Assembly: GCA_024663395.1 (NCBI GenBank)
Contig: JANFAH010000003.1
Coordinates: 1,178,001-1,242,000, forward strand
From: Pisolithus tinctorius
Taxonomy: Eukaryota; Basidiomycota; Agaricomycetes; Boletales; Pisolithaceae
Length of the DNA stretch: 64,000 nt
Direction of reading: 5' to 3'
Below are positions 3,004 to 62,136 of this stretch, one piece after another. The translations under genes were made by a program, and so were the position numbers. Under the pieces are notes generated by a model. It was not told where the DNA came from. It made no database searches and saw nothing but the letters and a program-made list of their open reading frames with translations. The number at the start of each line of letters is the position of its first letter. Position 1 is the first letter of the stretch.

Positions 3004-4082
3004 CTACTCAGCCTCAGCCATACTCTCGTCCTCCCCCTTGGACTCCTCCTCTTCATCCTTGCCATGGGTATTCAACCACTCTGCTTCCTCACACAACTCA
3101 TCAGAGTCGAGCTTGGACGAGCCCGAGTCCAAAGGGGATACCACCATCCCGAAGCCATATGATTCGTTGAGTAGGGACTCGAGTGCATCAGCAATCTGGC
3201 CTGAGTTCTTGACCACAATTTTGTGAAGCTCAAAGAGGCTGGCCAAGTTGTTGGCAATCAGTCCCATGGCCTTGATCAGTTGCTCGGGCTTGCCCTCCAA
3301 GCCCGAGTATCTGGCCATGCTGGCCTCCTTTACTCCGCTCCCACCAGCCTCAGTCTCATCAAGATCCAAGACCTCAATTGGCCTCGCACTCGTCCTTGCC
3401 CGTTTCTGGTTGCTGGGCCCAGCCTCAGCATTCTCTTCATCGACCTTCTGTTTTTTGCCTTTGTCGGCCTTACTAATGGCCTTGGGCCCGGACTCAGTGT
3501 CCTCCCTGTCCCCAGGCCAGTGACACTTGCCTTTTGATTGGTTGCATCGCACACAGGCAATGCACTTCTTGTTACTGTCTATGACAAATTTGCAGACGAC
3601 TTTGGCCTGGGCACAACGGGTACAACTAAAAGCATTGTCAGGAAGGATATGCACAAAGTTCAGAAAGGTACTCACCCAGGGTCCATAACCACCTTCTTGA
3701 CCTTGCTGGTCTCACTACCACTGGCCCCAGCCTTGCTGCCCTTCCTGGCCTCAGCCTTATGCTATTGCTCGGCCTCCTTTTCCTCCTCGGCCCTGTGCTT
3801 CTCCTCCTCCTCACATGCCCTCTCCTCTTCGGCCTCCCATGCTGCCCTCTCGGCTTCAGCCTTCTCCCTCTCTGCTCTCTCAGCCTCAAGCTGAGCCTGC
3901 TCCTCCCACTGGGCTTGCTCAGCCACCTTTCGCCTTTTCCTCTCCTTCACTTTTGCCCTCATCACCTCCTCTTCATCATCAGTGTCATACCTGATGTCAT
4001 TGTCGGGGACTTGGGCCCAGTCAATGATGGCTTGGCCTTTGTTGTTGTTATCAGTGGCCACGGTCAGTCTTGAGTCAGACAT
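3004..4082 (-). pseudogene. Antisense spliced Zn2Cys6/coiled-coil gene of el.1 (broken)
   Basis: This gene lies on the strand opposite pol, between pol and the 3' LTR. Exon 1 is 4082-3676 (start MSDSRLTV) and encodes an acidic/basic E-R-A-K-rich coiled coil. A 50-bp intron (3675-3626) starts GTGAGT, has a CTGAC branch-like motif and ends TTTTAG. Exon 2 is 3625-3004 and starts at once with a Cys cluster of spacing C-x2-C-x6-C-x12-C-x2-C-x6-C, followed by an acidic C-terminal region. Exon lengths 407 + 622 add to 343 codons, so splicing keeps the frame (phase 2). A premature TAG at 3764-3762 breaks exon 1. Zn2Cys6 proteins in fungi are usually DNA-binding regulators; a role for this one is inference only. 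Equivalent genes lie at 6752, 21303 and 46570. Confidence 0.75.
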
Positions 4083-5937: not shown

Positions 5938-6045
5938 ATCGAATGCACCCCATCTCCCTGAAAATAATGATAATCAATTTGAGCTGAGTTAGGGACAGTG
6001 AGAACACACCATCGCCAGGGCAGTTGCACAATGATAATTCATAAG
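5938..6045. other. Short flank before el.2
   Basis: No coding signal is seen. The last five bases, ATAAG (6041-6045), form the left copy of the el.2 target-site duplication. Confidence 0.6.
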
Positions 6046-6620
6046 TGTTAAGTCCGGGTCTTTACCGGTCCAAGGCCGGTCCGGAGTCCGGTCGGGGGTC
6101 AGAGGGTAACACGAGATATCGAAGGTTTTGGACTGTTGGACTTAGCGACTGATGACGCAGCGCTATTCCCTTGCATGGGCCGTAGTCCGGTCGAGAAGCA
6201 GAAGACAGATGAACAGGGAGACCGGGTTAAGATGGGAACTAAGTTGATTTCAGACTGAGGCTAGAACAGATTATCCTACAGCTTAAATACTAGAAGTAAC
6301 CTAAGTGTAACGTAGCACCAGAGACCAGTCTGCGCCGGTACAGCGATGATTGGTAAGTAGTGCTACAAAGAATCTTATCAAGCAAAGAGTATGAACAAGG
6401 GATTACTGGGAACCGGGGCAGGAGATGTGGCTGGGCCGGGTGTTACACCGGCCCGGTACTAACTGAGGGGACAACTCGACTGGGCACTGCCTTGCAGTGC
6501 CTCGCAAGCTAACATGTTTCTGGGTCGAAGGATCAAGGCCGGGACCGGGGCAAGGGTTGGACAGGACCGGTCGAGACCAGGGTAGAGCCGGTCTGGGGTG
6601 GTCTAGGCACGGTCATGACA
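6046..6620 (-). repeat. 3' LTR of el.2
   Basis: 575 bp, TGTTAAG to CATGACA on the plus strand. It carries the predicted primer/transcript start (complement of 6247-6256). Confidence 0.93.
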
Positions 6621-6751
6621 GTATCCCCCTCTTGGAGCCAAGCCCACGAGGCTCCAATGAGGACAATGCTGAGATCAAAAATTTTGTGTCTGACCTTGAA
6701 AACCGGGGGACTTAAGACCGGTCCACCTCAGGTTTGTCTCCTCACTTCGAC

Positions 6752-7788
6752 ATGTCTATTCGCCGGTCCAGAACACCATACGACCAAGAACTCCTGCCTG
6801 ACCTGACCCGGGCGACGAGCAAAGAGCTGCGGGTGGGCAGCGACGATGACGATGAGGCCATCCGGGGAAAGCTGGCCGAGCACAAGAGGCGCAAGGCGAA
6901 GGCGCAGGAGGAAGCCCGGTTGGAGGCTGAGAGGCAGGAGCAAGCCCAGCTCGAAGAGGAGAGGGCACGCGCAGAGGCTGAGGCGCAGAGAGTAGAGGCC
7001 GCGCGCAAGGCTGAAGAAGCCAGAAAGGCAGAGGAGAGCCGGCGGGCAGATGCCCTAGTGGGTAGTTCGGCCGGGGCCGGTTCAAACGTCGAGGTGATGG
7101 ACCCTCGGTGAGTACTGTGATGACTACCACCGGTGTTGATAACCAACACTCCACCAGCTGCCTTCGCTGCGCCTGGACCAACACGCCTTGCCTGCGCAGC
7201 ACCGATGGTAAGAAGAAGCGCATGGCGTGTAACCGGTGCAACGAGCTCAAGGAGCGCTGCCGGTGGCCGGTCGAAGGTGAGGCCGGTGCTGGGCTGGCTG
7301 GGGACAAGGGGAAGAGGAAAGCGGATGTGACGTCCCCTCGCACGGGTGAGAAGAAGAGGTCGCGACGTCCATCTGCAAAGGTAACCGAGGGTGCAGGTGA
7401 CGAGGAGGACGATGTAGAGGAGGGGCCTTCGATGAAGAAGACTGGCGCTGAGACCAGGGCCGGTCCTGTTACCAGCGATCAGATGGAGCGCCTGATCAAG
7501 GCGGTAGAGCGCGTGGCCGACAACATGGCCGGTCTTGCGACAGCACAAAAGGAGGTTTCCCGAAACTTCTACCGGTTCGCCTGGTCGTATGAAACCTACG
7601 TCGAAGAGCGCTTCGAATTCCTGGCGCCGGAAGTGCCTTCAGACCAGGACACCACCGACGAGGAAGACAGGGAAGTCGAGGGACTCGACGATGAGTTGGA
7701 GGGGCTGAGGGAGGAAGAGGAGGAAAGCCGGTCCCGGTCTGAGTCAGGTGATCAGGCTGGTGCCGGTTCCGCTGGGTCCCAAGTCTGA
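6752..7788 (+). CDS. Antisense spliced Zn2Cys6/coiled-coil protein of el.2
   Basis: Two exons, 6752-7107 and 7158-7788, join to 328 residues with no internal stop. The 50-bp intron (7108-7157) has GTGAGT, a TTGAT branch-like motif 18 nt from the end, and CACCAG. The start MSIRRSRT was chosen because the el.1 and el.3 versions begin MS at the same place, 120-130 bp inside the LTR. Exon 1 is a charged coiled coil (about residues 45-105). Exon 2 opens with six cysteines spaced C-x2-C-x6-C-x12-C-x2-C-x6-C, which fits the fungal Zn2Cys6 binuclear cluster, and ends in a very acidic tail. It lies antisense to the element, between pol and the 3' LTR. The likely location is nuclear and the function unknown. 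This is the only copy without a premature stop. Confidence 0.78.
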
Positions 7789-7969
7789 GGTCGCATGTGT
7801 GTAGAGTAGTACCTTCCCTTTCTGTACGCTTTGTGAATGCCAATGCCTGGTTCCGGTTCTGAAGTGTGAAAGAAAACAATATAGAGAAAAATAAAGGAAA
7901 TCAAGACATAGTAAGTACTAGATAGGAGAAACAGATAAAGAGGAAAGGAAACTTGAGACCGGTTCTGGA

Positions 7970-10900
7970 TTATTTCTGAAAGGGACCGGGTTTGTGCAGG
8001 TACCGGTCATGATATTCTTGGACGAGTTCTGAAGCGTTGTCCAGCTCTGTTGCTAATACCCAGGTAGTTTCTTCGTCAGTTCCCTCATAACCGGTCCACC
8101 GGACCAGGTACTGCAACCAACACTTTCTGCGCCGGTCGACCTTCGAATCGAGTATCTCTGCTACTTCGAATTCTAAGTCGCCGTCGACATCTACTGGTGG
8201 GGGTGGAGGTTGAGACCGGTTGGGTATGGTATTTGGGATGGCCAGTTCAAGCTGGGAAACGTGGAAGACCAGGTGTACAGCGCGCATAGAGTCTGGTAGA
8301 CGCAGGGTGAATGAGTGAGAGCCGGCCTGGGCTATTATGGGGTAGGGCCCAAGGTTCTTCTCACTTAGTTTCTTGGAGGGCCGGGTCGACCGGAAGTACT
8401 TGGCTTTTACATAGACATTGTCGCCCACTTTGAAGTCCGGGGCCGGCATGCGCTTAGCATCTGCTGGTCCTTGGTAGCGTTGCTGGGCGAGAGCCATTTC
8501 TTCACGTAGGTACTGGTGCAGTGAATCTAAGTCAACTGCATAATCACGAGCCCGGTTGGATGTGAGGTCGCGCTCAGGGAAGACCGAGATATTAGGGTGG
8601 TAGCCCTTATTAGCGAAGAAGGGTGATACCCCGGTCGTAGCGCTGGGTGCATTATTGTAGGCAAACTCAGCTAGTGGTAGTAACTCGGCCCAGTTGTCCT
8701 GCTGATAGTTGCAGTAGACCCGGAGATACTGTTCGAGGGTCTGGTTGGTGCACTCTGTCTGACCATCCCCCTCTGGGTGATACCCGGAGGTGAAATGTAG
8801 ATGCATGTCTAGAGCTTTACCTAGAGACCGGAAGAAGTGGGATACAAACTCTGATCCCCGGTCTGAGGTTACATGGGCCGGTACACTGTGCTTAGAGAAC
8901 ACGTGCATGAGGAAGAGCTTGGCGAGCTCGGGGGCCGTGACGGTGTCGTGAGTAGGTATGAAGATGGCTTGCTTTGATAGCCGGTCGACCACGACGAGGA
9001 TGGCGGTAAAGCCGGTTGAGGCCGGGAGTTGCTCTATGAAATCCATCGAGATGGAATTCCATGGCTTCTCTGGCACGGGGAGCTGTTTGAGCAGGCCGTA
9101 AGGCCGGTGGCGAGGTACCTTGGCCCGGGCACAGGTAGTACAAGACCGGACATAGTTCTTGACAAATGTCCTTAGGCCGGGCCAGGTGTACTCCCGTCGG
9201 ATGAGCTCTAAGGTTCTGTTCTGGCCAAAATGGCTGGATAAAGGATGATCATGTTTAAACTTCAAGACACGGAGGCGAAGGTCATTAGAGTCCGGTACAT
9301 AGATTCTTCCATCTAGACGGAGGAAGCCGGCGTCATCAACTGACCACCGGGAATCTGATGTGTCTGAGAACTGGACTTGGGCGACCGGGTCTGAGGGTAG
9401 GGCTGAGAGAATATCATTATGTAGCTTCTCCACATCCATCAGTGCAACAGCACGTAGGACCGGGTATTCAAGGTAGGTGGCACGCAGGGAGGTGGCTAGC
9501 TGTTCCTGCGTGAAGACCGGTCTGAGATTCTGTGGGTTGACCCGGGCGTAGTCGCTATCCCCCTCTTTGGGGTAGACGTCCCATCGTCTAGTTAGGGCGT
9601 CAGGCTTAGCACCGAGTTTACCGGGTCTGAACCGGATAACCATATTGAACTGTGACAAGAACTCAGACCAGCGCGCCTGGCGCTGGGTTAAAACCTTTGA
9701 GGTGGAGAAGTACTCCAGGTTCTTGTGATCGGTGACAATGTCGACCGGTACTGCAGAGCCTTCTAAGTAATGCCGCCATGTCCGGAACGCCTCGAAGATC
9801 GCGAGTAACTCCTTATCATGGGTGTCATAATTTAGCTCCGGGGCTGTTAAGGTGTGAGAATAGAATGCAACCGGCCGGATTTGACCATCACCACCGGTGA
9901 TGGACAAAATACCAGCTATGGCATAATCAGAAGCATCAGTCTCGACAGTAATAGGAGCTTCTGGGGAAAAGTGAGTTAGGACTGGGGCAGTGGTGAAGGC
10001 CTGCTTGAGTTTGTTGAAAGACCGGTGGCACTCCTCAGAAAAGTTCCAGGGAGCACCTTTGCATGTCAACCGGGTTAGAGGTACCACTATGTCCGAGTAG
10101 TTAAAAATGAACCGGCGATAGAAATTGGCGAAGCCCAGGAAGGACTGAATGTCCTTTACCTTCCGGGGTTCAGGCCAGTCGCAGATAGCTTTGACTTTCT
10201 CTGAAGACATGGTAAGTCCGGCCGGGGACAAGTGGTAACCCAAGTATTCCACAGAGTCCGAGTGGAATTCGCACTTCTCCGGTTTGGCATATAGGCCATG
10301 CAACCGGAGCTGGTGAAGAACCTCCCGGACGTGCTGCCTATGTGATGACTCATCTCCGGAGTAGATTAAAATGTCGTCGAGGTAGACGACGACGCAGACA
10401 TCTAGCATATCCACGAAGATTGAGTTGACGAACTGCTGGAAGGCGGCCGGGGCATTGGTAAGACCGAAAGGCATCACCAACCACTCGTAAGACCCATAGC
10501 GTGTTCTGAAGGCAGTTTTCCACTCATCCCCGGGTGCAATCCAGACGAGGTGGTAAGCGTGCCTTAAGTCGATCTTAGTGTAGATTTTGGCGCGGCTAGG
10601 GGAGTCGAGTAGATCAGATATTAGTGGTAGGGGATACCGGTCTTTCTTGGTGAGCTTGTTAAGGCCCCGGAAGTCAACACATAACCGGAGTGAACCGTCC
10701 TTCTTCTTTATGAAGAGGACCGGTGCAGCATAGGGGGAAGAGGTGGGCCGGATGAAACTGGTAGTCAGGTTTTCGTCGATGAAGGTCCGGAGAGCTTGCA
10801 GCTCGACCGGGGATAGCGAGTAGATGGTTCCTATGGGTGGTGTAGTACCTTCTTCCAATTCGATCTTAAGGTCATACTCCCGATGTGGGGGGAGAGTAGA

Positions 10901-11704
10901 GGCCTTGGCTTTGCTAAAGACGTCAGCAAAGTCGTGGTAGTCCTTTGGTACACCGGCCAGGTCTGGTGGAGGACCGGTGGAAGTAGACCGGGCCAGGACT
11001 GGGTCCAGTGGGCGTAGATGAAGTTGGAATTGGGTAGATCCCTCTAGTTTGCAAGCGTGTACATACGCAGCTGCATTGATCAGGGCGATAGGGGGAGCTT
11101 TCAGGGGGGTGCGAACCGGTGAGTCGACGGATGGTACAGATGGCGCAGGGCCGGGGTTGGGTTGGTCAGTTAGACCGGACTTGGGAAGACCGGTTAAGAC
11201 CGGTGTGGCAGGGGGTGTCGACGGGGTTGGCATTCCTCCTGTAGATGTCCGGAAAGTTAGACTGCTCAATACCCAATCAATCGACAGATTGTAGCGGGTG
11301 AGCCAGTCATGTCCAAGGACTATCTTACATTCAGAATCCAACGGGGCTAGAAACAGGGTTACTGGGGTGACATCGCCGGTCGCAAATTGAACCGAAAGAT
11401 CTACTGCTTGAGTGATGATGAAACTTGATGACCCATCAAAGAGCCGGAGTTGGATAGGGGACACGGGATAAGGGGCAAAGGAGTGTTGATTAACAAAGTC
11501 TTTATCTATGAAACTATGCGTGGAACCGGAGTCCACTAGTGTACGAAACCGGGGTAACTCATGACTGATGATAGAAACGTGGGGGGTTAACGAGTTTGGA
11601 TTAGAAAGAGCGGACGCGTTGAGGCGGGCCTCCGAGGGTGCACAGCCGGAGTCAACGCAGCTCTCAGTCTGTGCGGAGTCCTGAGAGCTGCTACCTATTT
11701 TTTT
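7970..11704 (-). CDS. pol: Ty3/gypsy Pol polyprotein (el.2)
   Basis: An open frame follows gag in the -1 frame. Reading starts at the slippery site (11698-11704). A linker with LNASALSNP (also present in el.4) leads to the protease motif VDSGSTHSF (11536). RT follows with YLDD near 10376-10390, then RNase H (VETDASDYA), the integrase HHCC finger (about 9255-9130), the integrase core (ISMDFIEQ, later VTSDRGSEF) and a chromodomain (about 8180-7990). The 1188 codons from 11536 are uninterrupted and catalytic residues look intact. The track ATG-equivalent at 11536 is GTG, so it is not a eukaryotic start; translation by frameshifting from gag is the better model. The enzymes act in virus-like particles, and the chromodomain would steer integration to marked chromatin. 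Confidence 0.93.
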   Translation of the reverse strand, partial: KKIGSSSQDSAQTESCVDSGCAPSEARLNASALSNPNSLTPHVSIISHELPRFRTLVDSGSTHSFIDKDFVNQHSFAPYPVSPIQLRLFDGSSSFIITQAVDLSVQFATGDVTPVTLFLAPLDSECKIVLGHDWLTRYNLSIDWVLSSLTFRTSTGGMPTPSTPPATPVLTGLPKSGLTDQPNPGPAPSVPSVDSPVRTPLKAPPIALINAAAYVHACKLEGSTQFQLHLRPLDPVLARSTSTGPPPDLAGVPKDYHDFADVFSKAKASTLPPHREYDLKIELEEGTTPPIGTIYSLSPVELQALRTFIDENLTTSFIRPTSSPYAAPVLFIKKKDGSLRLCVDFRGLNKLTKKDRYPLPLISDLLDSPSRAKIYTKIDLRHAYHLVWIAPGDEWKTAFRTRYGSYEWLVMPFGLTNAPAAFQQFVNSIFVDMLDVCVVVYLDDILIYSGDESSHRQHVREVLHQLRLHGLYAKPEKCEFHSDSVEYLGYHLSPAGLTMSSEKVKAICDWPEPRKVKDIQSFLGFANFYRRFIFNYSDIVVPLTRLTCKGAPWNFSEECHRSFNKLKQAFTTAPVLTHFSPEAPITVETDASDYAIAGILSITGGDGQIRPVAFYSHTLTAPELNYDTHDKELLAIFEAFRTWRHYLEGSAVPVDIVTDHKNLEYFSTSKVLTQRQARWSEFLSQFNMVIRFRPGKLGAKPDALTRRWDVYPKEGDSDYARVNPQNLRPVFTQEQLATSLRATYLEYPVLRAVALMDVEKLHNDILSALPSDPVAQVQFSDTSDSRWSVDDAGFLRLDGRIYVPDSNDLRLRVLKFKHDHPLSSHFGQNRTLELIRREYTWPGLRTFVKNYVRSCTTCARAKVPRHRPYGLLKQLPVPEKPWNSISMDFIEQLPASTGFTAILVVVDRLSKQAIFIPTHDTVTAPELAKLFLMHVFSKHSVPAHVTSDRGSEFVSHFFRSLGKALDMHLHFTSGYHPEGDGQTECTNQTLEQYLRVYCNYQQDNWAELLPLAEFAYNNAPSATTGVSPFFANKGYHPNISVFPERDLTSNRARDYAVDLDSLHQYLREEMALAQQRYQGPADAKRMPAPDFKVGDNVYVKAKYFRSTRPSKKLSEKNLGPYPIIAQAGSHSFTLRLPDSMRAVHLVFHVSQLELAIPNTIPNRSQPPPPPVDVDGDLEFEVAEILDSKVDRRRKCWLQYLVRWTGYEGTDEETTWVLATELDNASELVQEYHDRYLHKPGPFQK

Positions 11705-13077
11705 GCCTCAGGGGCAGAGCCCAAGGTTGAGGCCGGTGCTGCCTCAGAGGTGGCCGCAGCGCGGGCTTTGGCTTTCCCGGCTTTCTTGGGGCACTTGTCG
11801 GCAAAATGTCCGGTTCCCCCACAGAACATGCAAAGGTTGTTGTCTCTACGGCGTTTGCACTCCTCCGGTGTCAACTTGCTGTCCTTGCCCAGTTTGTTTG
11901 AGTCCGGCTTGGGTGTGTTAGAGCCGGTCTGACCGGTCGAGGCGGGCTTGGATTGAGTTTGGTTACCAGAGTTGCTATTTCCGGAGTTATTGCCGGTCTT
12001 GGATTTCTCTTGACCGGGCTTAGACTGATTGTTGTGGCCGGGGTTGGGAGTAGGCTTGTTACCAGAGGACGACCCCTGGTGTTTACTAGACCGCTGAACC
12101 TCCTCTTTGCGCTCCCAGTAGCGTGCGTCAATCTCCTGCGCTAGGTGGCGAAGCTCGTGAAGGGTTCTTGGTTTGCCGACCCGGCAGACCTCGTCTTTGA
12201 TATGGTCGGGGAGACCGGTGTAGAAGAAGTGGCGCAGAGCGCCATCACCGTATCCCCGGACTTGTGAGGCAAGCCGGTTGAACTCGACCACGTACTTATT
12301 GACCCGGTGATTATCTTTCATCTGGAGGTGGTCCAGCTGGCTTTCAGCGTCAGCTACCGGGTCGTGAGGTCCGAAAGTTGTTTGAAGTTCTATGATGAAC
12401 TCCTTCCAAGAGTCCATCCAGTAGGGCCGGTCCTCCGGGTCTTCAGTCCCAAGTAGGTCCAGTTCGAACCACTCGAGAGCCATCCCTTTAAGGAATGACT
12501 GCGCGAAAGTGACCTTGGCTTGATCACTTTGAAAGGCCCGGGGCTGGTCTCAGAAGTTGAGTTCGCACTGGATAAGGAATGCGCGCAGCTTCTTTGGGTC
12601 TGTCCCATCGAAGGTGTCTGGTTCGCGCAACTTGGTTCTGGAGGATGATTCAGAGCTGGTGCGAGCATTACGTGCGAGGAGTTCTATGGCTTTGGCAAGA
12701 TTATCGAGCACGGTTACACCAGGCTCGACATCATCCTCTGGGAGGGGTTCTTCATCGTCATTGTCCGGGTCATCTCCCGGCCCGTCGTCGCCAGGACCTT
12801 CATCACCGGGGTCATTACCACCGGGATTGAAGTCATCTGGTTTGTCCGGGTCTGGTTCATCATCTGGATCATTAGTGGGTGCGAGAGGTCGGTTAGGGAT
12901 GGGGGTAGTGGATCTACGGGCTGAGAAGCCCCTGAAGTTGTTGACTTCACCGGGTGATCTTCTGGCTGTCCCTAAGGACACCAGGGCAGCGGCGTGGCGC
13001 AAGTCGACTGCTGAGGCGGAATTTGGGTTGGTGGTAGCATGTGCCCATGCTGCTTGGGTTCTGGTTTGGGTAGGCAT
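11695..13077 (-). pseudogene. gag: Ty3/gypsy Gag, one premature stop (el.2)
   Basis: The single minus-strand frame from MPTQTRTQ (13077) to the stop at 11695 encodes a proline/aspartate-rich N-terminal region, the retrotransposon Gag core (LREPDTFDG, then VTFAQSFLKGMALEWFE) and a zinc knuckle CMFCGGTGHFADKC (C-x2-C-x4-H-x4-C). An in-frame ATG 12 codons upstream (13113) exists, but 13077 matches the el.4 gag start better. TGA at 12552-12550 interrupts the core. The el.4 protein has Gln here, so the ancestral codon is uncertain. Without readthrough no full Gag or Gag-Pol is made. Confidence 0.88.
11698..11704 (-). other. -1 frameshift slippery site, el.2
   Basis: On the minus strand the gag frame reads GCA AAA AAA TAG. 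A-AAA-AAA is a canonical X-XXY-YYZ heptamer in the correct phase, directly before the gag stop (11697-11695). Slipping back one base enters the open pol frame. Confidence 0.75.
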
Positions 13078-13118
13078 GCCGAGGGATGAGCAGAAGGGTG
13101 TTGACCCACACAAGTGTG

Positions 13119-13128
13119 AGTCTGAAAT
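13119..13128 (-). promoter_or_regulatory. Self-primer binding site, el.2
   Basis: Minus-strand ATTTCAGACT, 2 nt outside the 5' LTR. It is perfectly complementary to AGTCTGAAAT at the predicted transcript 5' end in the LTR. It does not begin with TGG, as a tRNA-primed site would. Confidence 0.65.
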
Positions 13129-13130
13129 AC

Positions 13131-13705
13131 TGTTAAGTCCGGGTCTTTACTGGTCCAAGGCCGGTCCGGAGTCCGGTCGGGGGTCAGAGGGTAACACGAG
13201 ATATTGAAGGTTTTGGACTGTTGGACTTAGCGACTGATGACGCAGCACTATTCCCTTGCGTGGGCCGTAGTCCGGTCGAGAAGCAGAAGACAGATGAACA
13301 GGGAGACCGGGTTAAGACGGGAACTAAGTTGATTTCAGACTGAGGCTAGAACAGATTATCCTACAGCTTAAATACTAGAAGTAACCTAAGTGTAACGTAG
13401 CACCGGAGACCGGTCTGCACCGGTACAGCGATGATTGGTAAGTAGTGTTACAAAGAATCTTATCAAGCAAAGAGTATGAACAAGGGATTACCAGGAACCG
13501 GGGCAGGAGATGTGGCTGGGCCGGGTGTTACACTGGCCCGGTACTAACTGAGGGGACAACTCGACTGGGCACTGCCTTGCAGTGCCTCGCGAGCTAACAC
13601 GTTTCTGGGTCGAAGGATCAAGGCCGGGACCGGGGCAAGGGTTGGACAGGACCGGTCGAGACCGGGGTAGAGCCGGTCTGGGGTGGTCTAGGCACGGTCA
13701 TGACA
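13131..13705 (-). repeat. 5' LTR of el.2
   Basis: 575 bp. It acts as promoter for the minus-strand element and is followed on the right by the ATAAG duplication. Confidence 0.93.
13332..13374 (-). promoter_or_regulatory. LTR core promoter and primer start, el.2
   Basis: A TATTTAA box (complement of 13368-13374) lies 33 nt before AGTCTGAAAT (complement of 13332-13341), which is followed by CAACTTAG. The same layout occurs in el.4 and in the LTR at 19141. Confidence 0.6.
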
Positions 13706-14340: not shown

Positions 14341-14534
14341 GATAGCATCAGTAGCATGGGGCATGGACCAGTGATGTGGGAACAAAACTATGTGGAGTGC
14401 AATGCACAGAATACACCATTTCCAACATGGTCCTTCAATCTGGGAATTTTTGGAGTGCAACAAGGGTGCATGCCTCCTATGATCATGCAAATGGTCTGAT
14501 AGCATTTTGGCCTTGTGTTATGTGGAGAGTGGTG

Positions 14535-15160: not shown

Positions 15161-15178
15161 CTTATGAGGAAAATGTGA

Positions 15179-15245
15179 TCAGTCCTAAGATTGAACCAGC
15201 GAGCTCCTAGATGTTCACCAGGTGCTACAACCACTGGACTGTCTG
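15179..15245 (-). repeat. tRNA-derived SINE head
   Basis: A tRNA-like segment on the minus strand with a B-box-like GGTTCAATC. It is joined by a short linker (TTTTCCTCATAAGGCT) to the 65-bp repeats of array A. Confidence 0.5.
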
Positions 15246-21302: not shown

Positions 21303-22350
21303 ATGTCCAATCCAAGACTGACCATCACTGCTGACAACAACAACAAAGACTGAGTCATTGTTGACTGGGGCCAAGTCCCTGATAACAACATCAGATATGA
21401 CACTGACAATGAAGAGGAGGTGATGAGAGCGAAGGTGAAGGAGAGGAAGAGACAAAAGGCAGCTGAGCAAGCCTGGTGGGAAGAACAGGCTTGGCTTGAG
21501 GCCAAGAGGGCAGAGAGAGAGAAGGCTGAAGCTGAGAGGGCAGTGCGGGAGGCTGAAGAGGAGAGGGCACACGAGGAGGAGGAGAAGTGCAGAGCCAAGG
21601 AGGAGAAGGAGGCTGAGCGAAAACATAAGGCCGAGGCTGGTAAGGGTGATGAGGCCGGGGGGGAGGTGAAGAAAGTGGTCATGGACCCTGGGTGAGTGGC
21701 TTTTTAACTTTGTGTGTATTCCCCTTGACAACCCCTTTAGTTGTACTTGCTGTGCCTGGGCCAAAACTGTCTGTGAGTTCATCATAGATGGTAACAAGAA
21801 GTGCATTGCCTGTGTGCGATGCAATCAATCAAAAGGCAAGTGTCACTGGCCCAGGGATGGGAAGGATGCCGAGGCCAGTCCCAAGGCTGTCAAAGGCAAG
21901 AAGAGGAAAGTCAACAAGGAAAATGCCAAAGCTGGGCCCAGTATGCAGAAATGGGTGAAAATGAGTGTGAGGCTGACCGAGGTCTTGGACCTTGATGAAC
22001 CTGAGGCTGGCAGGAGCAGGGAGAAGGAGGCCAGCATGGTGTGCTCCTTGGGCTTAGAAGAGAAGCTCAAGTGGCTGATCAACACTGTGGGAATGATAGC
22101 CAACAACTTGGCAGGTCTCTTTGAGCTCCAAGAGGCTGCAGTTGAAAATTCAGGCTGTATTGCCAATGCCCTCAAGTTGCTAATCAATGAATCATACAGC
22201 TTTGGAATGGCAGTGTCCCCCTCGGATTTGGGCTCATCTGAGCTCGACTCTGACAAGCTGTGCAAGGAGGCCAAGTGGCTGAAAACCCATGGCGAGGACG
22301 AAGAGGAGGAGACCAAAGGGGAGGATGAGGACATGGCCGAGGCCAAGTAG
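21303..22350 (+). pseudogene. Antisense spliced Zn2Cys6/coiled-coil gene of el.3 (one stop)
   Basis: Exon 1 (21303-21691) encodes MSNPRLT and the charged coiled coil. The 49-bp intron (21692-21740) has GTGAGT, a TTGAC branch-like motif and TTTAG. Exon 2 (21741-22350) starts CTCCAWAKTVC, with the same six-cysteine spacing as el.1 (C-x2-C-x6-C-x12-C-x2-C-x6-C). Total 333 codons, phase 2. TGA at 21351-21353 interrupts exon 1. At the same codon el.1 has CAA, and both are the two possible CpG-decay products of CGA. The protein is otherwise open to its acidic end. Confidence 0.75.
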
Positions 22351-27837: not shown

Positions 27838-27914
27838 GTGCTGAGTAGCCCAAGCTACATCAGCAACAAGTCACACCTCACAAACATTGCAACACTTTTG
27901 TCCCTCACTGTAGG

Positions 27915-28299
27915 TGAGGGGCCATCAACATCAAAGAAGACCAGTGCTGAGGTCAAGGCCAGTCTGGTGACCAGTGCCCAAATGGAGCACTTGAGCAAAG
28001 CAGTCAAGCATGTTGCTGACAGCATGGCTGGCCTTGTGATGGTGCAAAGAGAGGTCTCCCAAAACTTCTACTGGTTCACCTGGTCATATGAGACCTACAT
28101 TGAAGAGCACTTCGAGTTTTTGGTGCTGGAAGTGCCTTCAGACTGGGACACCACTGATGAGGAGGACAGGGACATCAAGGGGCTTGATGATGAGTTGGAG
28201 GGGCTGAGGGAGGAAGAAGAGGAAAGCCAGTCCCAGTCTGAGTCAGGTGACCAGACTGGTGCCGGTCCTGCTGGGTCCCAAGCCTCAGTTCACATGTAG
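27915..28299 (+). pseudogene. Detached exon 2 of the el.2-type antisense gene
   Basis: The plus strand encodes the C-terminal half of the el.2 antisense protein (HVADSMAGL, then EVPSDWDTTDEEDRD and an acidic tail), with many Arg-to-Gln/His/Trp and Pro-to-Leu changes typical of CpG loss. The Zn2Cys6 motif and exon 1 are absent. It ends at a TAG equivalent to the el.2 stop and is followed by el.2-like 3' sequence to about 28375. Confidence 0.75.
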
Positions 28300-45662: not shown

Positions 45663-46376
45663 TGTCAAGTCCGGGCCTACTCCGACCAACTCCGACACTT
45701 AACAAGGTCTAGAGGAGGGTTTGGAAGCAAGTCCGACACAGAAGAACAGAACTCCGACTAGCGGAGTGTCGGCAGGAACGAAGACCGCCGAGGCAAAGGC
45801 GGAGCGGAGTGAGGGTGTCGGGTTTAGCTCGTGTGCTACCCCCTTGCACGATCTCAGCCCTCGTATTTCAGAGGGAGAGTACAGATGGAGAGTCGGAGAT
45901 AACTCCGACAGACAGAAGACGGAATCAGAGGGAGTAGGAACTAAGTTGATATTCGTACTGAAGAACAGCGGAGTACAGTACATGTTTTTATACTACTATG
46001 GAGGTACAGTAACCGGAATCGGAACTGACATATGGAGACTCATAAGTTTTCAAGTAAAATTTCCTGGACGACGAATGAAGGGTAGATGGAGGACATACGA
46101 ACGGGTAACACAGAACATCCAGAAAAGGAAACAGTCCAGGCACTGGACCACGCGGTGAGCGCGCTGCGGAGTACCTGACTGCGAAGGTAGTCACATGACC
46201 CCTCAGAGAACGGACTGCTCGGTCCGGTAGGAGAGTAACACAAGTCCGACAACAGTCGGAGCGGAGATGGTTCGTAGACGATAGAAAGTGGGCAGAGTTG
46301 GTGCGGAGTGAGCGAATGACCGGTGGAAAAGGTTGCAGAGTGAGTAAAGACCTATGACGAATGCGCGGTTATGACA
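45663..46376 (-). repeat. 3' LTR of el.4 (714 bp)
   Basis: TGTCAAGTCC to GTTATGACA. It contains the TATA box (complement of 45985-45992) 33 nt before the primer AGTACGAATAT (complement of 45949-45959). Confidence 0.93.
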
Positions 46377-46569
46377 GTGCCCCCCCCTTAGGGCCTGAAC
46401 CCCTGAAGGCCGTATGTACGGAACGAGATCAACACGAGTTGATCATTTGAAATTACTTTGATGCCTCGAGGATAATGGCTTTAGCCGCGGCGGAGCTCCG
46501 TTGGAGTTCGAAGTACCGCTTAAAAACACGTGTTAGGGTACTGAACCTTTGTCCTTTCCTCCCATCATC

Positions 46570-47812
46570 ATGCCTTCCCAGCGCCAGAGCAACACCCCCC
46601 AGCCAACCCCCGGCCACGTCCGCGACTATTCTCAAGTCGCGGATGAAGAACTGGTCGTCCTCACCGACGACTCCACTGACACCGAGTGGGAGAAGTCTGC
46701 GGAGAAGGCGCGCCAATGAGAGGAGACCGAGCGGAGAGAGAGAGAACGCGAAGCAGAGCGCAAGGCCAAGCGTGAGGAGGCCAAGAGGCAGAAGGCGGAG
46801 GAGGAGAGGTTGGAGGCGGAGCGGAGGAAGAGAGCGGAGGAGGAAGAGGAGGCTCAAAGGAAGAAGGCGGCAGAGGAGGAGGCAGAAAGGCAGAGGCAGA
46901 GGGCCTCTGCGGAGAGGGCCCAGGCCAGGCGAGACGAGGCCGCACAGAGGTGAGTGGCGGAGTACCGTGAGTCAGGCGGAGCTGACTCAATTTTTATTTT
47001 TTTATGTTTTGACCTTACCCTACCTCAGGTTAACCGGCACGGTGTACGACGTCAACACCGCCCAGAAGGTCCCAGGGGCCTCTGTGGTGGTCACCACGAC
47101 CAGAAGGGCCCCCTGCACTCGCTGTATAGCGAGTCTGACAGCGGGGCAGTGCGAGCCGGGACAAGGTAAAACCAGGGCCTGCGTGCCCTGTCACAACAAG
47201 AAGAAGACCTGCAGTTGGACGCAGGAAGAGGCGGCGGCAGGACCTTCGCGGAAGAGGGCAGGGACAGGGAGCTCCCGAGGGGAGAAGAAGAAGAAGCCGC
47301 GAGGGAAGGGGAAGGCGAGGGCGATGGAGACGGAGGAGGCAGATGACGCGCGGGAGGTAGGCGGAGAAGAGGACGAGCCTGCGACCCCACTCGAGGGTCC
47401 CTCGGGTGCGGGAGTCCACACGCGGTGGGCGGAGTGGGAGCGCGAGCGACAGCTGCAAGCCATGGAGAGGCAGGCCGAAGCGCACGAGACCGCTGTGCTG
47501 GCCTTCGAGAGGATGGCAGAGGCAGCAGAGCGGATGGCGGAGGCTGCAGAGCGGACCGCTGATGAGTGGGCGCTGTACCGCGCCTGGGCAGAGTGGGCGG
47601 AGATGAGGAGAAGGGAGGATGCGTGTGAGGCCAGAGTGGCCGAGTTCAAACGCGCAGGAGGAGGATGGAAGAGGCCGCAGTCGGAGGTGGCGGAGGACCA
47701 GCGAGAGGAAGCAGATGAAGGTGCGGAGGGGGATAATGAGGAAGAAGTCGAAGGAGAGCAGGAAGGCGGTGAAGAACAGGAGGGTGGTGGAGAGCAAGCG
47801 ATGGAAGAGTAG
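46570..47812 (+). pseudogene. Antisense spliced Cys-cluster/coiled-coil gene of el.4
   Basis: Exon 1 (46570-46949) starts MPSQRQSNTP and runs into a long R/E/A/K coiled coil. TGA at 46717-46719 interrupts it. The intron (46950-47028, 79 bp) has GTGAGT, a pyrimidine tract, TTGAC and CTCAG. Exon 2 (47029-47812) gives a cysteine set C-x2-C-x8-C-x9-C-x2-C-x6-C, slightly off the Zn2Cys6 rule, then a second helical E/R/A-rich region with repeated RMAEAAER and an acidic end. 388 codons, phase 2 as in the other copies. Protein sequence is strongly diverged from el.1 to el.3 while architecture, position and splice phase are kept. Confidence 0.72.
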
Positions 47813-48011
47813 AGTAGTTTTGTTTTCTTTTTGTTTTCTTTTTTTTTTTTTGTCTTTAGTTTGTATATTTTGTATTACTACGAGATAGGCTTGTGATTTT
47901 GTTTGTGACTCTGAGAAGTGAAACGGATAAGCAGAGAAAATTCTAAAGTACTTAAGATAGTTCAGTAAGAGGCGGAGTTGGCCCGCGGAGGAAGTTTATG
48001 TAGGCAGAGTA

Positions 48012-51000
48012 TTATGGCGGAGGTTGATACGGGCCAGGTTTGTGTGGATAGCGTTCATGGAAAGCGGACACTATGTCGGAAGCGTGATCTAGCTCAGTTG
48101 CAAGCAACCAAGAGGTTTCTTCGTCGGTGTTCTCGTAACCAGCCCAGCGGACTAGATACAAGAGTTGACATTGGCGGCGACGGCGGTCCACCTTAGAGTC
48201 GAGTATCTCTGATACTTCGTACTCAAGGTCACCATCGACATCTACTGGCGGAGGCGGAGGTTGTTGTTGGTTTGGGAAAGGGTTAGCCACTGCGGCTTCC
48301 AGTTGTGAGACATGGAAGACCGGATGTACCGAGCGCATAGAGTCAGGGAGCTTAAGGGTGACAGAATGCGTACCTGGCCTGGCCAGGATGGTGAACGGAC
48401 CTAAGTACTTTTCGGAGAGTTTTTCCGAAGGACGAGTGGAGCGGAAGTACTTGGCTTTGACATAGGCCTGTTCTCCGACCTTGAACTCAGGCGGAGGTAT
48501 GCGTTTAGCATCTGCTGGACCCTGGTAGCGCTGTTGAGCGGTGGACATTTCGGAGTGGAGGAAGTCATGAAGGGCGGAGAGCTCGACGACATAGTCATGA
48601 GCCCTTGGAGAAGTGAAGTCTTGGTCAGGGACCACAGACAGGTTTGGATGGTATCCCTTGTTAGCGAAGAAGGGAGAAACTCCAGTTGTCGCACTTGGTG
48701 TGTTGTTGAAAGCGAACTCCGCTAGAGGTAACAGCTCAGCCCAGTTGTCTTGTTGGTAGTTACAGTAAACACGAAGGTACTGTTCGAGGGTCTGGTTCGT
48801 TCGCTTGGTCTGGCCATCGCCTTCTGGGTGGTAACCCGAAGTGAAGTGAAGACGCATATCAAGGGCCTTTCCTAGGGAGTGGAAGAAGTGTGAGATGAAC
48901 TCAGGACCTCTGTCGGAGGTAACATTAGCTGGTACTCCATGCTTGGAGAAGACATGGGCTAGGAAGAGCTTAGCGAGTTCGGCGGAGGTGACGGAGTCGT
49001 GGGTGGGGATGAACACCGCTTGCTTTGAGAGGCGGTCCACTACCATGAGTATGGCGGAGTAGCCATCGGAGTTGGGGAGGTGTTCGATGAAGTCCATGGA
49101 GATGGAGTTCCAAGGTCTCTCTGGGACGGGGAGTTGCTTCAGTAGACCATAAGGGCGGTGACGCGGAGTTTTGCTCCATCCACAGGCAGTGCAAGACCTG
49201 ACGTACTCCTTTACGTCGGAGCGGAGGTTGGGCCACATGTAGTCCCTGCGGACGAGTTCTAAGGTGCGGTTTTGCCCGAAATGGCCTGCTAGAGGATGAT
49301 CATGCTTGAACCGAAGCACTCAGAGGCGGAGGTCATCAATGTCAGGGACAAAGATATGACCGTCAAGGCGGAGTAGACCGTCGGAGTCCAAGGACCACCG
49401 AGGCTTAGTCGGAGTTGGGAGATGGCTGGCGGAGACAGGATCGGAGGGTAGGGCGGAGATGATGTCGGAGTGCAAGCACTCAACATCGAAGACCATGGTG
49501 GCATGGAGCACAGGTGCCATGAGGGTGGTGGTACGGAGGGACGACGCGAGTTGCTCCTGTGTAAACATAGGGCGGAGATTGTGAGGATTTACCTGCGCAT
49601 AGTCCCTATCCCCCCCTTTTGGGTAGACATCCCAATGTCGCATAAGTGCGTCGGGTTTGGCTCCTAGGCGGCCAGGTCGGAAGCGGATGGAAAGATTGAA
49701 CTGGGAAAGGTACTCCGACCAGCGGGCCTGTCGACGAGTGAGAACCTTAGAGGTAGAAAAGTACTCAAGGTTTTTGTGGTCCGTCACCACGTCGACAGGT
49801 AAGGCGGAGCCTTCTAAGTAATGCCACCAATGGTGGAAGGCCTCGAAGATAGCCAACAGCTCCTTGTCGTGGGTATCATAGTTGAGTTCTGGCGCGGTCA
49901 TGGTGCGGGAGTAGAAAGCGACTGGGCAGAGTTCACCGTCGGAGCAGGTGATCGACAAAATGCCAGCAATGGCATAGTCGGAGGCGTCAGTTTCCACTGT
50001 AAGCGGAGCATCAGGGACCCAATGAGTGAGAATGGGAGCGGAGCTGAAGGCATCCTTCAGGCGGAGGAAAGCGGAGCGGCACTCCTCAGAAAAGTTCCAA
50101 GGAGCACCCTTTTGCGTGAGGCGAGTGAGCGGAACGACGATGTTGGAGTAGTTATTAATGAATCGTCTATAGAAATTTGCGAAACCAAGGAAAGACTGGA
50201 TGTCTCGCACCTTCCACGGCTCAGGCCAGTCGCGGACTGCCTGAACCTTCTCGGCGGACATGGTGAGACCGGAGGGAGAAAGGACATAACCGAGGTACTC
50301 GACGGAGTCGGAGTGAAACTCGCACTTCTCCGGCTTGGCATAAAGGCCATGCTTTCGAAGGCGGCGGAGTACCTCTTTTACGTGTTCGCGATGCAACTCC
50401 ATGTCCTGCGAATAGATTAAGATGTCATCGAGGTACACCACGACGCAGACATTGAGCATGTCTGCAAAGATGCTATTGACGAATCACTGGAAGGCTGCAG
50501 GCGCGTTAGTCAGACCGAACAGCATTACCCGCCACTCGTAAGAACCATAACGAGTGCGGAATGCTGTTTTCCATTCATCTCCGTCTGTGATGTGGACCAG
50601 ATGATAGGCATGGCAGAGGTCAATCTTGGTATAGACTTTAGCGCGGCTTGGGGAGTCGAGTAGGTCGGAGATGAGCAGCAGCGGATAGTGGTCTTTTTTC
50701 GTGATTTTATTGAGTCCTCGATAATCAACGCAGAGGCGGAGTGAACCGTCCTTCTTCTTCACGAAGAGGACAGGGGCACCGTGAGCGGAGGTGGACTGCT
50801 TGATGAAACCGTAGCCAAGATGCTCGTCAATGAAGGTGCGGAGAGCTTCAAGCTCTGGCGGAGAAAGAGAGTAGATCGTGCCAATGGGCGGAGAAGCTCC
50901 TTCCTCGAGGTCGATCTTGAGATCGAACGAGCAGTGTGGCGGAAGTTCTGTGGCCTTGTCTTTACTAAAGACATTGGCGAACTCGTGATACTCAGGAGGA

Positions 51001-51737
51001 ACTGAGGAGAGGTCAGGAGGCGGAGAGGAAGCGGAGGATGCACGAAGCTTCACATCATCAGTGGAGAGCTGTAAGTGGAACTGTCTAGAGCCAGGGAGAG
51101 CACAGGCTCTGACATATGCAGCAGCATTGATGAGTGAGACGAGCGGAGCGGAGCACGGCGAGTCTGTCAGAGGTGCAGTCGGAGCTGCAAACGGAGCGGA
51201 GGGTGTCGGATCCGGAGCGGAGGTCGCAGTGGAAGGTGACGAAGGCGCCTGGGGTGTCGGCATTCCCTGTAGCGATGGTTTGAATGATATACTGCCCAGT
51301 ACCCAGTCAATCGATGGATTGAAGCGGGTGAGCCAGTTGTGTCCTAATACCAGCGAACATGAAGAATCCAACGGAGTAACATAAAATGAAACGGAATTGA
51401 CATCGCTGGAAGGGAAGCGGAGGGAAAGATCTACCTTTTGGGAAATGACAGCATTTGTACTACCATCAAACAAGCGGAGCAGAATTGGCAGAGAGACGGA
51501 GGAAACAGGAATGGCATATCTTTTGATTATAGACGGGTCTACGAAACAATGAGAAGAGCCGGAATCGATCAACGCAGAAACAGTATCAACAGAATAATCC
51601 GGAAGAGTTACAGACAGAAGTAAAGAGTTGGGACTAGAAAGAGCGGACGCATTGAGTCAGATGTCCGGTGGCGCACAGTTGGGTTCAACGCTTCCTCCAG
51701 GCTGTGCGAGCTCCCTGGAGGAGCGGACTAATTTTTT
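48012..51737 (-). pseudogene. pol: Ty3/gypsy Pol (el.4), three stops
   Basis: One minus-strand frame entered by -1 frameshift at 51731-51737. Linker LNASALSSP, protease [11 protein letters not shown] with intact YLDD (near 50430), RNase H, integrase HHCC (HDHPLAGHFGQNRTLELVRR) and core, and chromodomain (EYEVSEILDSKVDRRRRQ). TGA codons at 51659-51657, 50486-50484 and 49322-49320. At the first and third el.2 has Arg; at the second other copies have Gln, Cys or Trp, consistent with an ancestral CGG/CGA. The 435-codon end segment (49319-48012) is open. Confidence 0.92.
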
Positions 51738-53014
51738 GACTCTGCCTTCTCCTCAGTCGGAGTAGGCGGAGTTCCAGCCATAGCTGCACGGGCTTTGGCT
51801 GCGCGAGAGGTGGACTTGGGACAGTCCTTGGCGGAGTGGCCAGCCTCGCCACAGAAGAGGCAGAGGTTGTTCTTCATCCTACACTGGCACTCAGCGGAGG
51901 TGAGTTTGCCATCTTTACCCAGAAGGTGGGCAATATCGGACTTAGACGCGTCGGACTTGGGTGGATCTTTCTGTTTGCCCTTGCCCTTGGTGTTGGACTT
52001 TGGAGCGGAGGACGAGGAGGACGACAATTTAGTTTTGTTGTCGGAGTTGGAAGACTGCGACTTGTCAGAGGCAGACTTGGTGGTGCGCGAGATCTCTGCT
52101 TTGCGCTCCCAGTAACGCGCATCGATGGTCTGAGCGAGTTCGCAGAGTTGTGCGAGGGTAGAAGATTTTCTGACGCGAGCGATCTCGTCCTTGATGCGGT
52201 CTGGAAGTCCACTATAGAAGCAGTGGCGCAGTGCACCAACACCGTAGTCCTTGACCTGTGAAGCCCAGCGATTGAACTCCACGACGTATTTAGTAATTCG
52301 AGACCCATCTTTCATGGTTAGGTTCTCGAGTTGTTGGACGGCATCCGCTATGGCATCATGCGGACCAAAGTTAGTTGTGAGCTCTTGTAAGAACTCATGG
52401 TAGTTGTCCATCCAGAGCGGGCGGTCATAGTTGTCGGGGTTTAGCAAATCTGGCTCGAACCAAGCCAGGGCCATACCCTTGAGATAAGATTGAGCGAAGG
52501 TAACCTTTGCTCTGTCGGAGCGGAATGCGCGAGGGTGGTCCTGGAAGTTCAACTCGCATTGTACGAGGAACTCGTGGAGCTTCTTAGGGTTGGAGCCGTC
52601 GAAGGTGTCAGGCTCGCGGACTTTGGTTTTCGGAGCGGAGTCCCCAGTGTGCGAACTAGACCGCACAAGTGCATGGACAGCTCTAGCAAGAGCTACGAGG
52701 GGATCCTCTGGCGGCTCAGCCAGGTCTTCGGGGATATCCCCGTCACTGCTGCCCCCGCCATCGGGATCACCATCAGGATAGTCAGGGTCGGGATCAGGTC
52801 CATCATCTCGGTTACGAGGAGATGGAGTGTGGAAAGCTGTTGGGTGGAGGTTGGAGCAACCAGCCTGTGAAGCGCTTTCGCCTTCAGCGCGAGAGCAGCG
52901 TCGAGTGGAGAAGGATTGGAATTGTTCGACAATGGAAGGAAGCTGACGCGGATTGGCTAGCGTTGCAGCGAGGTTCTCAGCGACCTCTCTTTGGGATTGA
53001 GCTCGAGTTCTCAT
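51728..53014 (-). CDS. gag: Ty3/gypsy Gag (el.4), intact
   Basis: 428 residues with no stop. The start MRTRAQSQ is the first ATG after the leader. It has an Asp/Pro-rich N-terminal part, a Gag core (VREPDTFDGSNPKKLHEFLV, VTFAQSYLKGMALAWFEP) and a zinc knuckle CLFCGEAGHSAKDC. The stop TAG follows directly on the slippery heptamer. Gag forms the particle that holds the RNA and Pol enzymes. It is about 40% shorter at the N-terminal acidic region than would be needed for exact alignment with el.2 but is otherwise colinear. Confidence 0.92.
   Translation of the reverse strand: MRTRAQSQREVAENLAATLANPRQLPSIVEQFQSFSTRRCSRAEGESASQAGCSNLHPTAFHTPSPRNRDDGPDPDPDYPDGDPDGGGSSDGDIPEDLAEPPEDPLVALARAVHALVRSSSHTGDSAPKTKVREPDTFDGSNPKKLHEFLVQCELNFQDHPRAFRSDRAKVTFAQSYLKGMALAWFEPDLLNPDNYDRPLWMDNYHEFLQELTTNFGPHDAIADAVQQLENLTMKDGSRITKYVVEFNRWASQVKDYGVGALRHCFYSGLPDRIKDEIARVRKSSTLAQLCELAQTIDARYWERKAEISRTTKSASDKSQSSNSDNKTKLSSSSSSAPKSNTKGKGKQKDPPKSDASKSDIAHLLGKDGKLTSAECQCRMKNNLCLFCGEAGHSAKDCPKSTSRAAKARAAMAGTPPTPTEEKAESKN
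51731..51737 (-). other. -1 frameshift slippery site, el.4
   Basis: The gag frame reads TCA AAA AAT TAG. A-AAA-AAT fits X-XXY-YYZ in phase, and the stop follows at once, as in el.2. Confidence 0.7.
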
Positions 53015-53062
53015 AATGGCATAAGTTTTTCAGAGGACAGAAAATGAGATCGTACAAGTGTG

Positions 53063-53073
53063 AGTACGAATAT
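53063..53073 (-). promoter_or_regulatory. Self-primer binding site, el.4
   Basis: Minus-strand ATATTCGTACT, 2 nt outside the 5' LTR. Perfect 11-nt complement of AGTACGAATAT in the LTR. Confidence 0.7.
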
Positions 53074-53892
53074 ACTGTCAAGTCCGGGCCTACTCCGACC
53101 AACTCCGACGCTTAACAAGGTCTAGAGGAGGGTTTGGAAGCAAGTCCGACACGGAAGAACAGAACTCCGACTAGCGGAGTGTCGGCAGGAACGAAGACCG
53201 CCGAGGCAAAGGCGGAGCGGAGTGAGGGCATCGGGTTTAGCTCGTGCGCTACCCCCTTGCACGATCTCAGCCCTCGTATTTCAGAGGGAGAGTACAGATG
53301 GAGAGTCGGAGATAACTCCAACAGACAGAAGACAGAATCAGACACTGGAAGCATTTCTCAATTTCTTTGCTAAAAACATTTTAAAAAAAGATTGAAAAAT
53401 GAGACTCTTTAATTTGGGATGTTTTTGTGACAAATATTGTAAAAACATATAGGATTTCTATTGTCTACCATGCCTCACAAAATATTATCAGAAAAACTTA
53501 AATTGTTGCATATAAAATAATTATGGATGTTCAGCAGAATGATTTTGAGTACAATATGTGTGATACATTGTAAATAGTTCTCCAATATATCTCACTTTTT
53601 TTTTGATTTAACAATCTGCTTTTTTGTGAGCAGAAAGTTTAAAAGGTAGGAAGTATTTACTTAGCCCAAATATTGTACTGCAATAATGAATTGTGTGCTA
53701 AAGCTCATCTGAAAAACATTCTGCCTTTTTTATGCACAAACATGTAATATGCAGTGAAATATTTTTCAACAAAAAATCAAATCAGATATAAAGTCTTTCC
53801 ACATGAAAATCATAGATCAAAACATCAAAAATTACTTCTGGATGAAATATTGAGTATATTATTACATGTTCCAGGCTGTCATTGTCATCATG

Positions 53893-62134: not shown

Positions 62135-62136
62135 AG

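Follow-up and report, generated by a model that had tools for sequence, protein, structure and literature searches.

Antisense genes lying between pol and the 3' LTR have been described in plants (Grande, RIRE2, Retand and PvRetro13) and in the Botrytis element Boty (PMC7264820, PMC11963269, PMC8365987), and where these papers discuss them their function is called unknown. Among the plant genes of this position, known as aORF-3R (Grande gene23, RIRE2, Retand TRP28), the Grande protein is nuclear, DNA binding is predicted for that of Retand, and the genes are kept in most copies; the word "intron" does not occur in the text of the two sources (PMC7264820, PMC11963269), one of which urges a search for antisense and spliced transcripts (PMC7264820). 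In fungi, the described case is brtn of Boty, from Botrytis cinerea and Sclerotinia (Zhao et al. 2011, cited in PMC7264820 and PMC8365987). Proteins encoded by other mobile elements are also described: VANC of Arabidopsis VANDAL is a fast-evolving element-encoded protein with short, dense motifs in the DNA of its own element (PMC5735166, PMC10398659), those of VANC21 being arrayed in one orientation (PMC5735166), and TET/JBP dioxygenases are encoded by fungal DNA transposons (PMC12730594).

The gene family analysed here comes from the ectomycorrhizal host fungus Pisolithus tinctorius. Like brtn, it is an extra gene of a gypsy element in a fungus, placed antisense between pol and the 3' LTR, and it resembles the plant aORF-3R genes in position and orientation (PMC7264820, PMC11963269). 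Unlike the present case, Boty is an ascomycete element, and the descriptions of brtn, on which the comparison is based, mention no zinc cluster, intron or motif; the plant aORF-3R proteins carry other domains, and no element-wide motif is described for them in the consulted parts of PMC7264820 and PMC11963269. The gene is antisense like HBZ of HTLV-1, which has a spliced form and a regulatory role, but HBZ is a bZIP protein of an animal retrovirus and no sequence kinship is claimed. By analogy, VANC would come nearest in the way it acts, although it is an unrelated protein of a DNA transposon, its motifs lie in noncoding tandem repeats, and its binding and a methylation loss have been demonstrated (PMC5735166, PMC10398659), whereas for the Pisolithus protein both would be predictions. 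In literature drawn mostly from outside subscription journals, including PMC10066745 and PMC5689174 on Pisolithus and other Boletales, we found no description of an antisense zinc-cluster gene in the LTR elements of basidiomycetes, nor of CGG words like these in them.

A two-exon antisense gene in three gypsy families

The window is a stretch of 64,000 nucleotides, bases 1178001-1242000 of contig C3, in a P. tinctorius assembly of 92.5 Mb and 221 contigs, which was also the genome searched. Family A is represented by el.2, family B by el.1 and el.3, and family C by el.4. The parts of el.2 are as follows.

6046..13705, minus strand: the family A element el.2, a complete Ty3/gypsy copy with gag-pol on the minus strand, recognised by two LTRs and a target-site duplication
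6046..6619, minus strand: 3' LTR, 574 bp, from LTR comparison
6620..6640, minus strand: region of the polypurine tract, of the AAGAGGGGGATAC type, next to the 3' LTR, read in the sequence
6752..7107, plus strand: exon 1 of the antisense gene, with start codon and long charged helix
7108..7157, plus strand: intron of 50 bp, phase 2, GTGAGT...CAG
7158..7788, plus strand: exon 2, which holds the cluster of six cysteines and then a basic linker, a second helix, an acidic tail and the stop, the layout being taken from the related protein P0001
7159..7260, plus strand: cluster C-x2-C-x6-C-x12-C-x2-C-x6-C
7970..11536, minus strand: pol, a single ORF of 1188 aa in which Pfam recognises protease, RT, RNase H, integrase and chromodomain; convergent with the antisense gene
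11695..13113, minus strand: gag, read as two ORFs that share a frame and are separated by a stop, from the ORF list, with Pfam for the 11695-12483 ORF
13131..13705, minus strand: 5' LTR, 575 bp, from LTR comparison

The target-site duplication ATAAG flanks the element at 6041-6045 and directly past 13705. The LTR pair shows 15 mismatches and one gap; all 15 mismatches are transitions, a pattern as in methylated-cytosine decay. With the LTR ending at 6619, the gene at 6752-7788 and pol ending at 7970, the order is that of an aORF-3R between pol and the 3' LTR. Further copies in the window, and the element carrying one of them, are:

3004..4082, minus strand: el.1 gene copy, family B, one stop in exon 1
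21303..22350, plus strand: el.3 gene copy, family B, one stop in exon 1
27838..28299 (approximate), plus strand: fifth gene copy, truncated, family A-like, amid copia sequence, from the ORF list and a genome match
45663..53342, minus strand: el.4 element, family C, with 110 CGGAG/CTCCG sites
46570..47812, plus strand: el.4 gene copy, family C, one stop in exon 1, intron at 46950-47028

The coordinates and orientation of a two-exon antisense gene in el.1 to el.4, with a GTGAGT donor and a phase-2 intron, were confirmed as given in the initial annotation, and its observation that the exon lengths sum to a multiple of three in all four elements was reproduced. The introns of el.1 to el.4 measure 50, 50, 49 and 79 bp, and the reading frame is open in el.2 only, each of the other three having a single in-frame stop in exon 1. 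Against a proposed range of 120-195 bp, the gene of el.2, the element measured, starts 132 bp inward of the 3' LTR. The six cysteines said to open exon 2 were seen near its start, in el.4 about 30 codons in. The truncated fifth copy matches exon 2 residues 86-208 (C3:1205910-1206281). Elsewhere in the window, an array of approximately 65-bp repeats (family D1) occupies 14489-16641, with more copies at two later places, and three tRNA gene matches on the minus strand (24236-24308, 41081-41153 and 41540-41612) lie within a repeated stretch (family D7).

Searches of the genome with exon 2 gave at least 151 matches for el.2 (150 of 527 candidates scored) and at least 150 for el.4 (150 of 558 candidates scored). 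The copies were located via the antisense gene itself, and counts therefore refer to gene-bearing copies. Sixty-two such loci (30 of family A, 20 of B and 12 of C) were fetched from among the best matches and hence lean to well-kept copies. The same exon/intron plan, with GT-AG borders and phase 2, was modelled in 58 of them (29 A, 20 B, 9 C), and in the remaining four (L024, L067, L069, L070) donor and acceptor are legible by eye; the acceptor was called too far downstream in several C copies, so that codon numbers near the junction are approximate for that family. In all 58 modelled copies pol runs antisense to the gene, 175-230 bp past the gene stop. A CTRAY branch-site match is present in 24 of the 29 modelled A copies and absent from the el.2 intron. 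The presence of the gene in other copies of these families, on which its initial description had been made to depend, is thus borne out by the 62 fetched loci that carry the plan, and the idea that antisense orientation lets the intron survive retrotransposition fits all of them (62/62). The gene offers a clear case of an intron outlasting retrotransposition because the gene runs antisense.

Related public proteins were compiled in lists of 70 for A, 120 of 173 for B and 71 for C, and all those listed are named as Pisolithus (P. tinctorius, P. orientalis and P. microcarpus); the search depends on common exact words, and remoter relatives may exist. Public gene models place the junction identically in 51 of the 70 A proteins and 105 of the 120 listed B proteins.

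A cysteine cluster with reversed halves

Structure models were made for one A and one B protein, and their overall confidence is low (mean pLDDT 64.3 and 65.1, pTM 0.30 and 0.29). They show a long helix in exon 1, which in P0001, related to the el.2 protein, spans residues 31-104 with block-mean pLDDT of 87-98. In the cluster each CxxC is followed by a short helix, and beyond the cluster come a linker without order and a second helix of about 50 residues, followed by an end that is acidic by its sequence charges; confidence within the cluster is moderate (block means 58-75). As modelled, the layout is transcription-factor-like. In GAL4-type Zn2Cys6 regulators the cluster is followed by a linker, a coiled coil and an acidic region, and the same order is found here. 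The cluster spacing C-x2-C-x6-C-x12-C-x2-C-x6-C is likewise that of GAL4-type proteins (PF00172); unlike them, the Pisolithus proteins have the halves of the cluster reversed, a profile score under the cut-off and a long coiled coil in front.

The Zn2Cys6 spacing is C-x2-C-x6-C-x5-12-C-x2-C-x6-8-C. The spacing 2-6-12-2-6 occurs in 52 of the 70 A and 108 of the 120 listed B public proteins, and 20 of the 71 C proteins have 2-7/8-9-2-6, the first half of which falls outside this pattern. The PROSITE pattern PS00463 matches none of the 70 A, 81 of the 120 listed B and none of the 71 C proteins. Pfam returned no family for el.2 exon 2. Compared with Zn_clus (PF00172), 15 of 54 aligned proteins appear at E values up to 10, the best E being 0.055. 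Native sequences align best over part of the profile, residues 2-23 of A matching profile positions 18-38, and residues 25-38 of B and 26-39 of C matching positions 1-14, while swapping the halves by hand makes A, B and C align in one stretch. Scores for the native and swapped forms are 15.6 and 17.0 bits for A, 19.3 and 17.9 for B, and 13.5 and 12.6 for C, a gain for A only. The order expected from Zn_clus, basic half first, is not that of these proteins, whose halves are reversed.

Of the initial assignment to Zn2Cys6, the spacing therefore stands; membership of the family does not, since the halves are in reversed order and the Zn_clus gathering score of 21 bits was never reached, cut-out cluster segments giving at most 19.3. 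Because of this reversal and of the score below the cut-off, we label the cluster Zn2Cys6-like, with apparently permuted halves, and place it outside Zn_clus membership. A profile search of solved structures gave 20 weak matches (best E 0.073), none named as a zinc-cluster regulator.

Separately, a repeated gene with an open frame of 275 aa and a Zn_clus match above the Pfam cut-off was seen at five places of the genome (G000; C7:1597710, C25:850238, C13:691659, C18:312066 and C48:450171; loci L002, L003 and L005 were read). It is possibly another element-borne zinc-cluster gene.

CGG-core words and the candidate role of the protein

The usual half-site of Zn2Cys6 proteins is CGG. Counted on both strands, this triplet reaches 49.8 per kb in el.2 (A), 53.8 in a B element taken as two pieces with approximate ends, and 35.9 in el.4 (C). 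Elsewhere it amounts to 20.4 per kb in a host sample of 34.9 kb that is small and non-random (L001-L008, L072, L073), and to 13.1 in a gypsy element without the gene (56600-62800) and 6.1 in copia sequence (31000-35922), two controls whose counts are lowered because they are CpG-poor (observed/expected 0.5). L074, an undecayed locus of the gypsy lineage without the gene, has 22.3 CGG per kb and no antisense six-cysteine frame within 2.2 kb.

The flanks of the triplet differ, without being strictly family-specific. In family A, C precedes CGG in 81-88% of cases, and ACCGG, at 16.7 per kb, exceeds the dinucleotide expectation 6.8-fold. Family B prefers CGGNCT and also uses ACCGG, at 8.3 per kb in one element (3.5 times expectation) and at 11.0 and 12.1 per kb, respectively, in the LTRs and pol of this family. 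Family C uses CGGAG/CTCCGC, CTCCGC reaching 8.7 per kb (11 times expectation) and ACCGG only 1.0. Word flanks thus vary by family, being partly common to A and B and distinct in C, with a clear break between A/B and C. The distribution in el.2 is:

6046..13705, unstranded: 128 ACCGG/CCGGT sites across the whole of el.2, 3-11 per 500 bp, out of 164 in the window

The flanked words exceed what synonymous-codon shuffling predicts. In 300 synonymous-codon shuffles of el.2 pol, ACCGG was expected 20.9 times and observed 57 times (z 8.4), and CGGNCT was expected 11.4 times and observed 25 times (z 4.4); ACCGG in el.2 gag gave z 4.2, and CGGAG in four coding segments of el.4 gave z 4.6, 6.3, 5.3 and 2.2. 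Neither the gypsy element without the gene nor copia showed any word excess under the same shuffles. Bare CGG lies barely above expectation (z 2.1 in el.2 pol and 1.5 in gag; -1.2, 0.5, -0.3 and -3.3 in the el.4 segments), and it follows that the signal is the flanked word. Beyond their LTRs, the fetched loci have CTCCGC at 2.0 per kb, 9.2 times expectation, an excess that perhaps stems from nearby C elements.

As for the motifs of VANC, the words are short, dense in their own element and rare elsewhere, here relative to the 34.9-kb host sample. Unlike those motifs they are not confined to noncoding tandem repeats: they spread through LTR, gag, pol and the antisense gene, and no tandem repeats were seen. 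Likewise, no fixed spacing between CGG half-sites was seen, and a dimer reading with fixed half-site spacing was dropped on that ground. Compared with other CpGs, those within motifs are better kept in the LTRs of A and of B and in B pol, less well kept in A pol, and about equally well kept in C; with results so mixed across regions, shielding of motif CpGs from decay is not claimed.

Since CGG-core words saturate the elements, the suggestion of the initial annotation that the protein may regulate the LTR or chromatin becomes more likely. The reading we prefer, with a confidence approaching but not reaching even, is that of a nuclear protein that would bind the CGG-core words of its own element and control transcription or chromatin, by anti-silencing or autoregulation, in the manner of VANC. 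Transcription of the accessory gene would begin on the side of the 3' LTR and run toward pol, the transcript would be spliced, and the gene product would enter the nucleus as a DNA-binding protein composed of an N-terminal charged coiled coil, a Zn2Cys6-like cluster with swapped halves, a basic linker, a second coiled coil and an acidic tail. The cluster would recognise CGG-core words, repeated about 100 times along the element, and the bound protein would locally alter transcription or silencing of that element. Antisense transcription and splicing, nuclear location, word binding and the effect on silencing are all predicted steps. More tentatively, and as something we consider rather doubtful, the system may be one of anti-silencing self-recognition, in which a permuted zinc-cluster protein would co-evolve with an element-wide CGG-core code that includes coding DNA, the A/B and C groups each reading their own kind and gene-less relatives of the L075 type being served in trans.

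L075 (G000:C1:5721700-5723900) is a single locus of a sister family to C, 83% identical to it in the integrase region, and belongs to a pol class with many long open frames. Its open pol end is followed directly by the polypurine tract and LTR, with no antisense gene there, and CGGAG nevertheless occurs at 16.4 per kb in this one locus. Because A, B and C carry homologous versions of the gene, its loss in the L075 line would be the simpler history. Use of C's protein in trans by the L075 family is possible by analogy, since VANC6 affects a non-VANDAL repeat (PMC5735166). Alternatively, whatever gave L075 its words could have nothing to do with the gene.

This last point bears on another explanation, according to which the gene is an accessory regulator of the HBZ or Grande gene23 type acting mainly via protein partners or on the host genome, the CGG words having some other cause. 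The occurrence of C's word in the gene-less L075 agrees with it, as do the acidic tail and coiled coils, a position and orientation that match known antisense accessory genes (PMC7264820, PMC11963269), and the use of ACCGG in common by A and B despite a gene identity of 35%. It leaves unexplained, however, why CGG-core words are found in just those examined lineages that have the Zn2Cys6-like gene or are sister to a lineage with it, and we regard it as unlikely, if still worth weighing.

Strand counts speak to a different possibility, namely that the words act at the RNA level (in Gag or reverse-transcription recognition, or in RNA structure) or that a host factor reads them. The protein would then have a separate task, such as that of a nucleic-acid chaperone or RNA binder. 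Relative to the element, CTCCG of family C counts 97 on the gag-pol strand against 13 for CGGAG, and CGGNCT of family B counts 83 on the gag-pol strand against 25 for AGNCCG; this bias has a parallel in the single orientation of the VANC21 motifs (PMC5735166) and also fits an RNA-level role, as do the presence of words throughout the coding RNA and in L075 without the gene. Yet A's word is near-palindromic and about equal on both strands (67 and 61), and the LTR flanks differ between A and B (CTCGG at 0.1 and 9.6 per kb, respectively) in spite of pol sequences that are 93% identical. A role of the words at the RNA level or as targets of a host factor seems to us improbable, slightly more so than the protein-partner explanation.

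Selection and pace of change

Stop-free copies (22 A and 17 B) have intron lengths of 49-52 bp in A and 47-56 bp in B, falling into two (A) or three (B) classes modulo three, and in all of them exon 1 leaves phase 2 and the coding length is a multiple of three. Once CpG-type changes are masked, divergence per site in the intron interior is 0.25 (A) and 0.37 (B), and at codon positions 1, 2 and 3 it is 0.046, 0.033 and 0.171 in A and 0.090, 0.079 and 0.257 in B. The 110 bp upstream of the start codon are well kept (divergence 0.060 in A and 0.061 in B). Among stop-free copies dN/dS is 0.124 (A) and 0.154 (B) for the whole gene, and 0.119 and 0.060 for the cluster alone; in the set that includes copies with stops, with CpG-type changes masked, it is 0.168 (A, n=24), 0.162 (B, n=19) and 0.103 (C, n=8). 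The purifying selection for which the initial annotation had proposed a CpG-masked comparison is thus evident within families, and the cysteines, whose neutral evolution would have spoken against the claim, are constrained: even with damaged copies counted, all six are retained in 28 of 29 copies of A and in all 20 of B. Judged by these patterns, the antisense gene is genuine, under selection and built like a spliced gene.

At the amino acid level the gene is 35% identical between A and B and 29-32% between C and A/B; for pol, the last 420 residues are 91% identical between A and B and 75-78% between C and A/B. A comparison of the A/B profile with that of C (probability 98.5, E 3.5e-15) indicates that the three genes are homologous. 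The dN of the gene exceeds that of pol about 11-fold within A (0.056 and 0.005) and about 17-fold between A and B (0.508 and 0.029), as expected of a factor changing its target. Gene and pol distances are correlated within families (Mantel r 0.61, 0.36 and 0.72). Synonymous divergence within A is 0.33 for the gene and 0.10 for pol, and the gene, its intron and the stretch after it are generally more divergent in A and B than pol and the part adjacent to the polypurine tract; exchange between lineages and constraint on the flanks are both possible causes. In the same copies of A and B, synonymous divergence of the gene was seen to be two to three times that of pol, and the intron to be more divergent than the LTR.

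Retroelements do capture genes, and the fast divergence between families (A and B at 35% amino acid identity) might suggest a captured host zinc-cluster gene carried as a functionless passenger; this is very improbable, given dN/dS values of 0.10-0.17, a frame held while introns drift, six cysteines kept and three homologous families, and a neutral passenger is ruled out by the codon-position, intron and dN/dS tests. These same tests rule out chance ORFs or an annotation artefact, of negligible probability even though repetitive charged sequence readily opens frames, as do the codon-position pattern, intron lengths that vary modulo three beside a coding length always a multiple of three, and the public gene models with the same junction.

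For the antisense genes of gypsy elements, the reading of a nuclear protein that binds CGG-core words of its own element offers a concrete, testable answer to the question of function: a CGG target is what one would expect for a protein of this type, and CGG-core words abound in the elements. If true, element-encoded self-recognition of the VANC type would have arisen independently in fungal retrotransposons, and this would help explain how several close gypsy families are found together at high copy number in one mycorrhizal genome.
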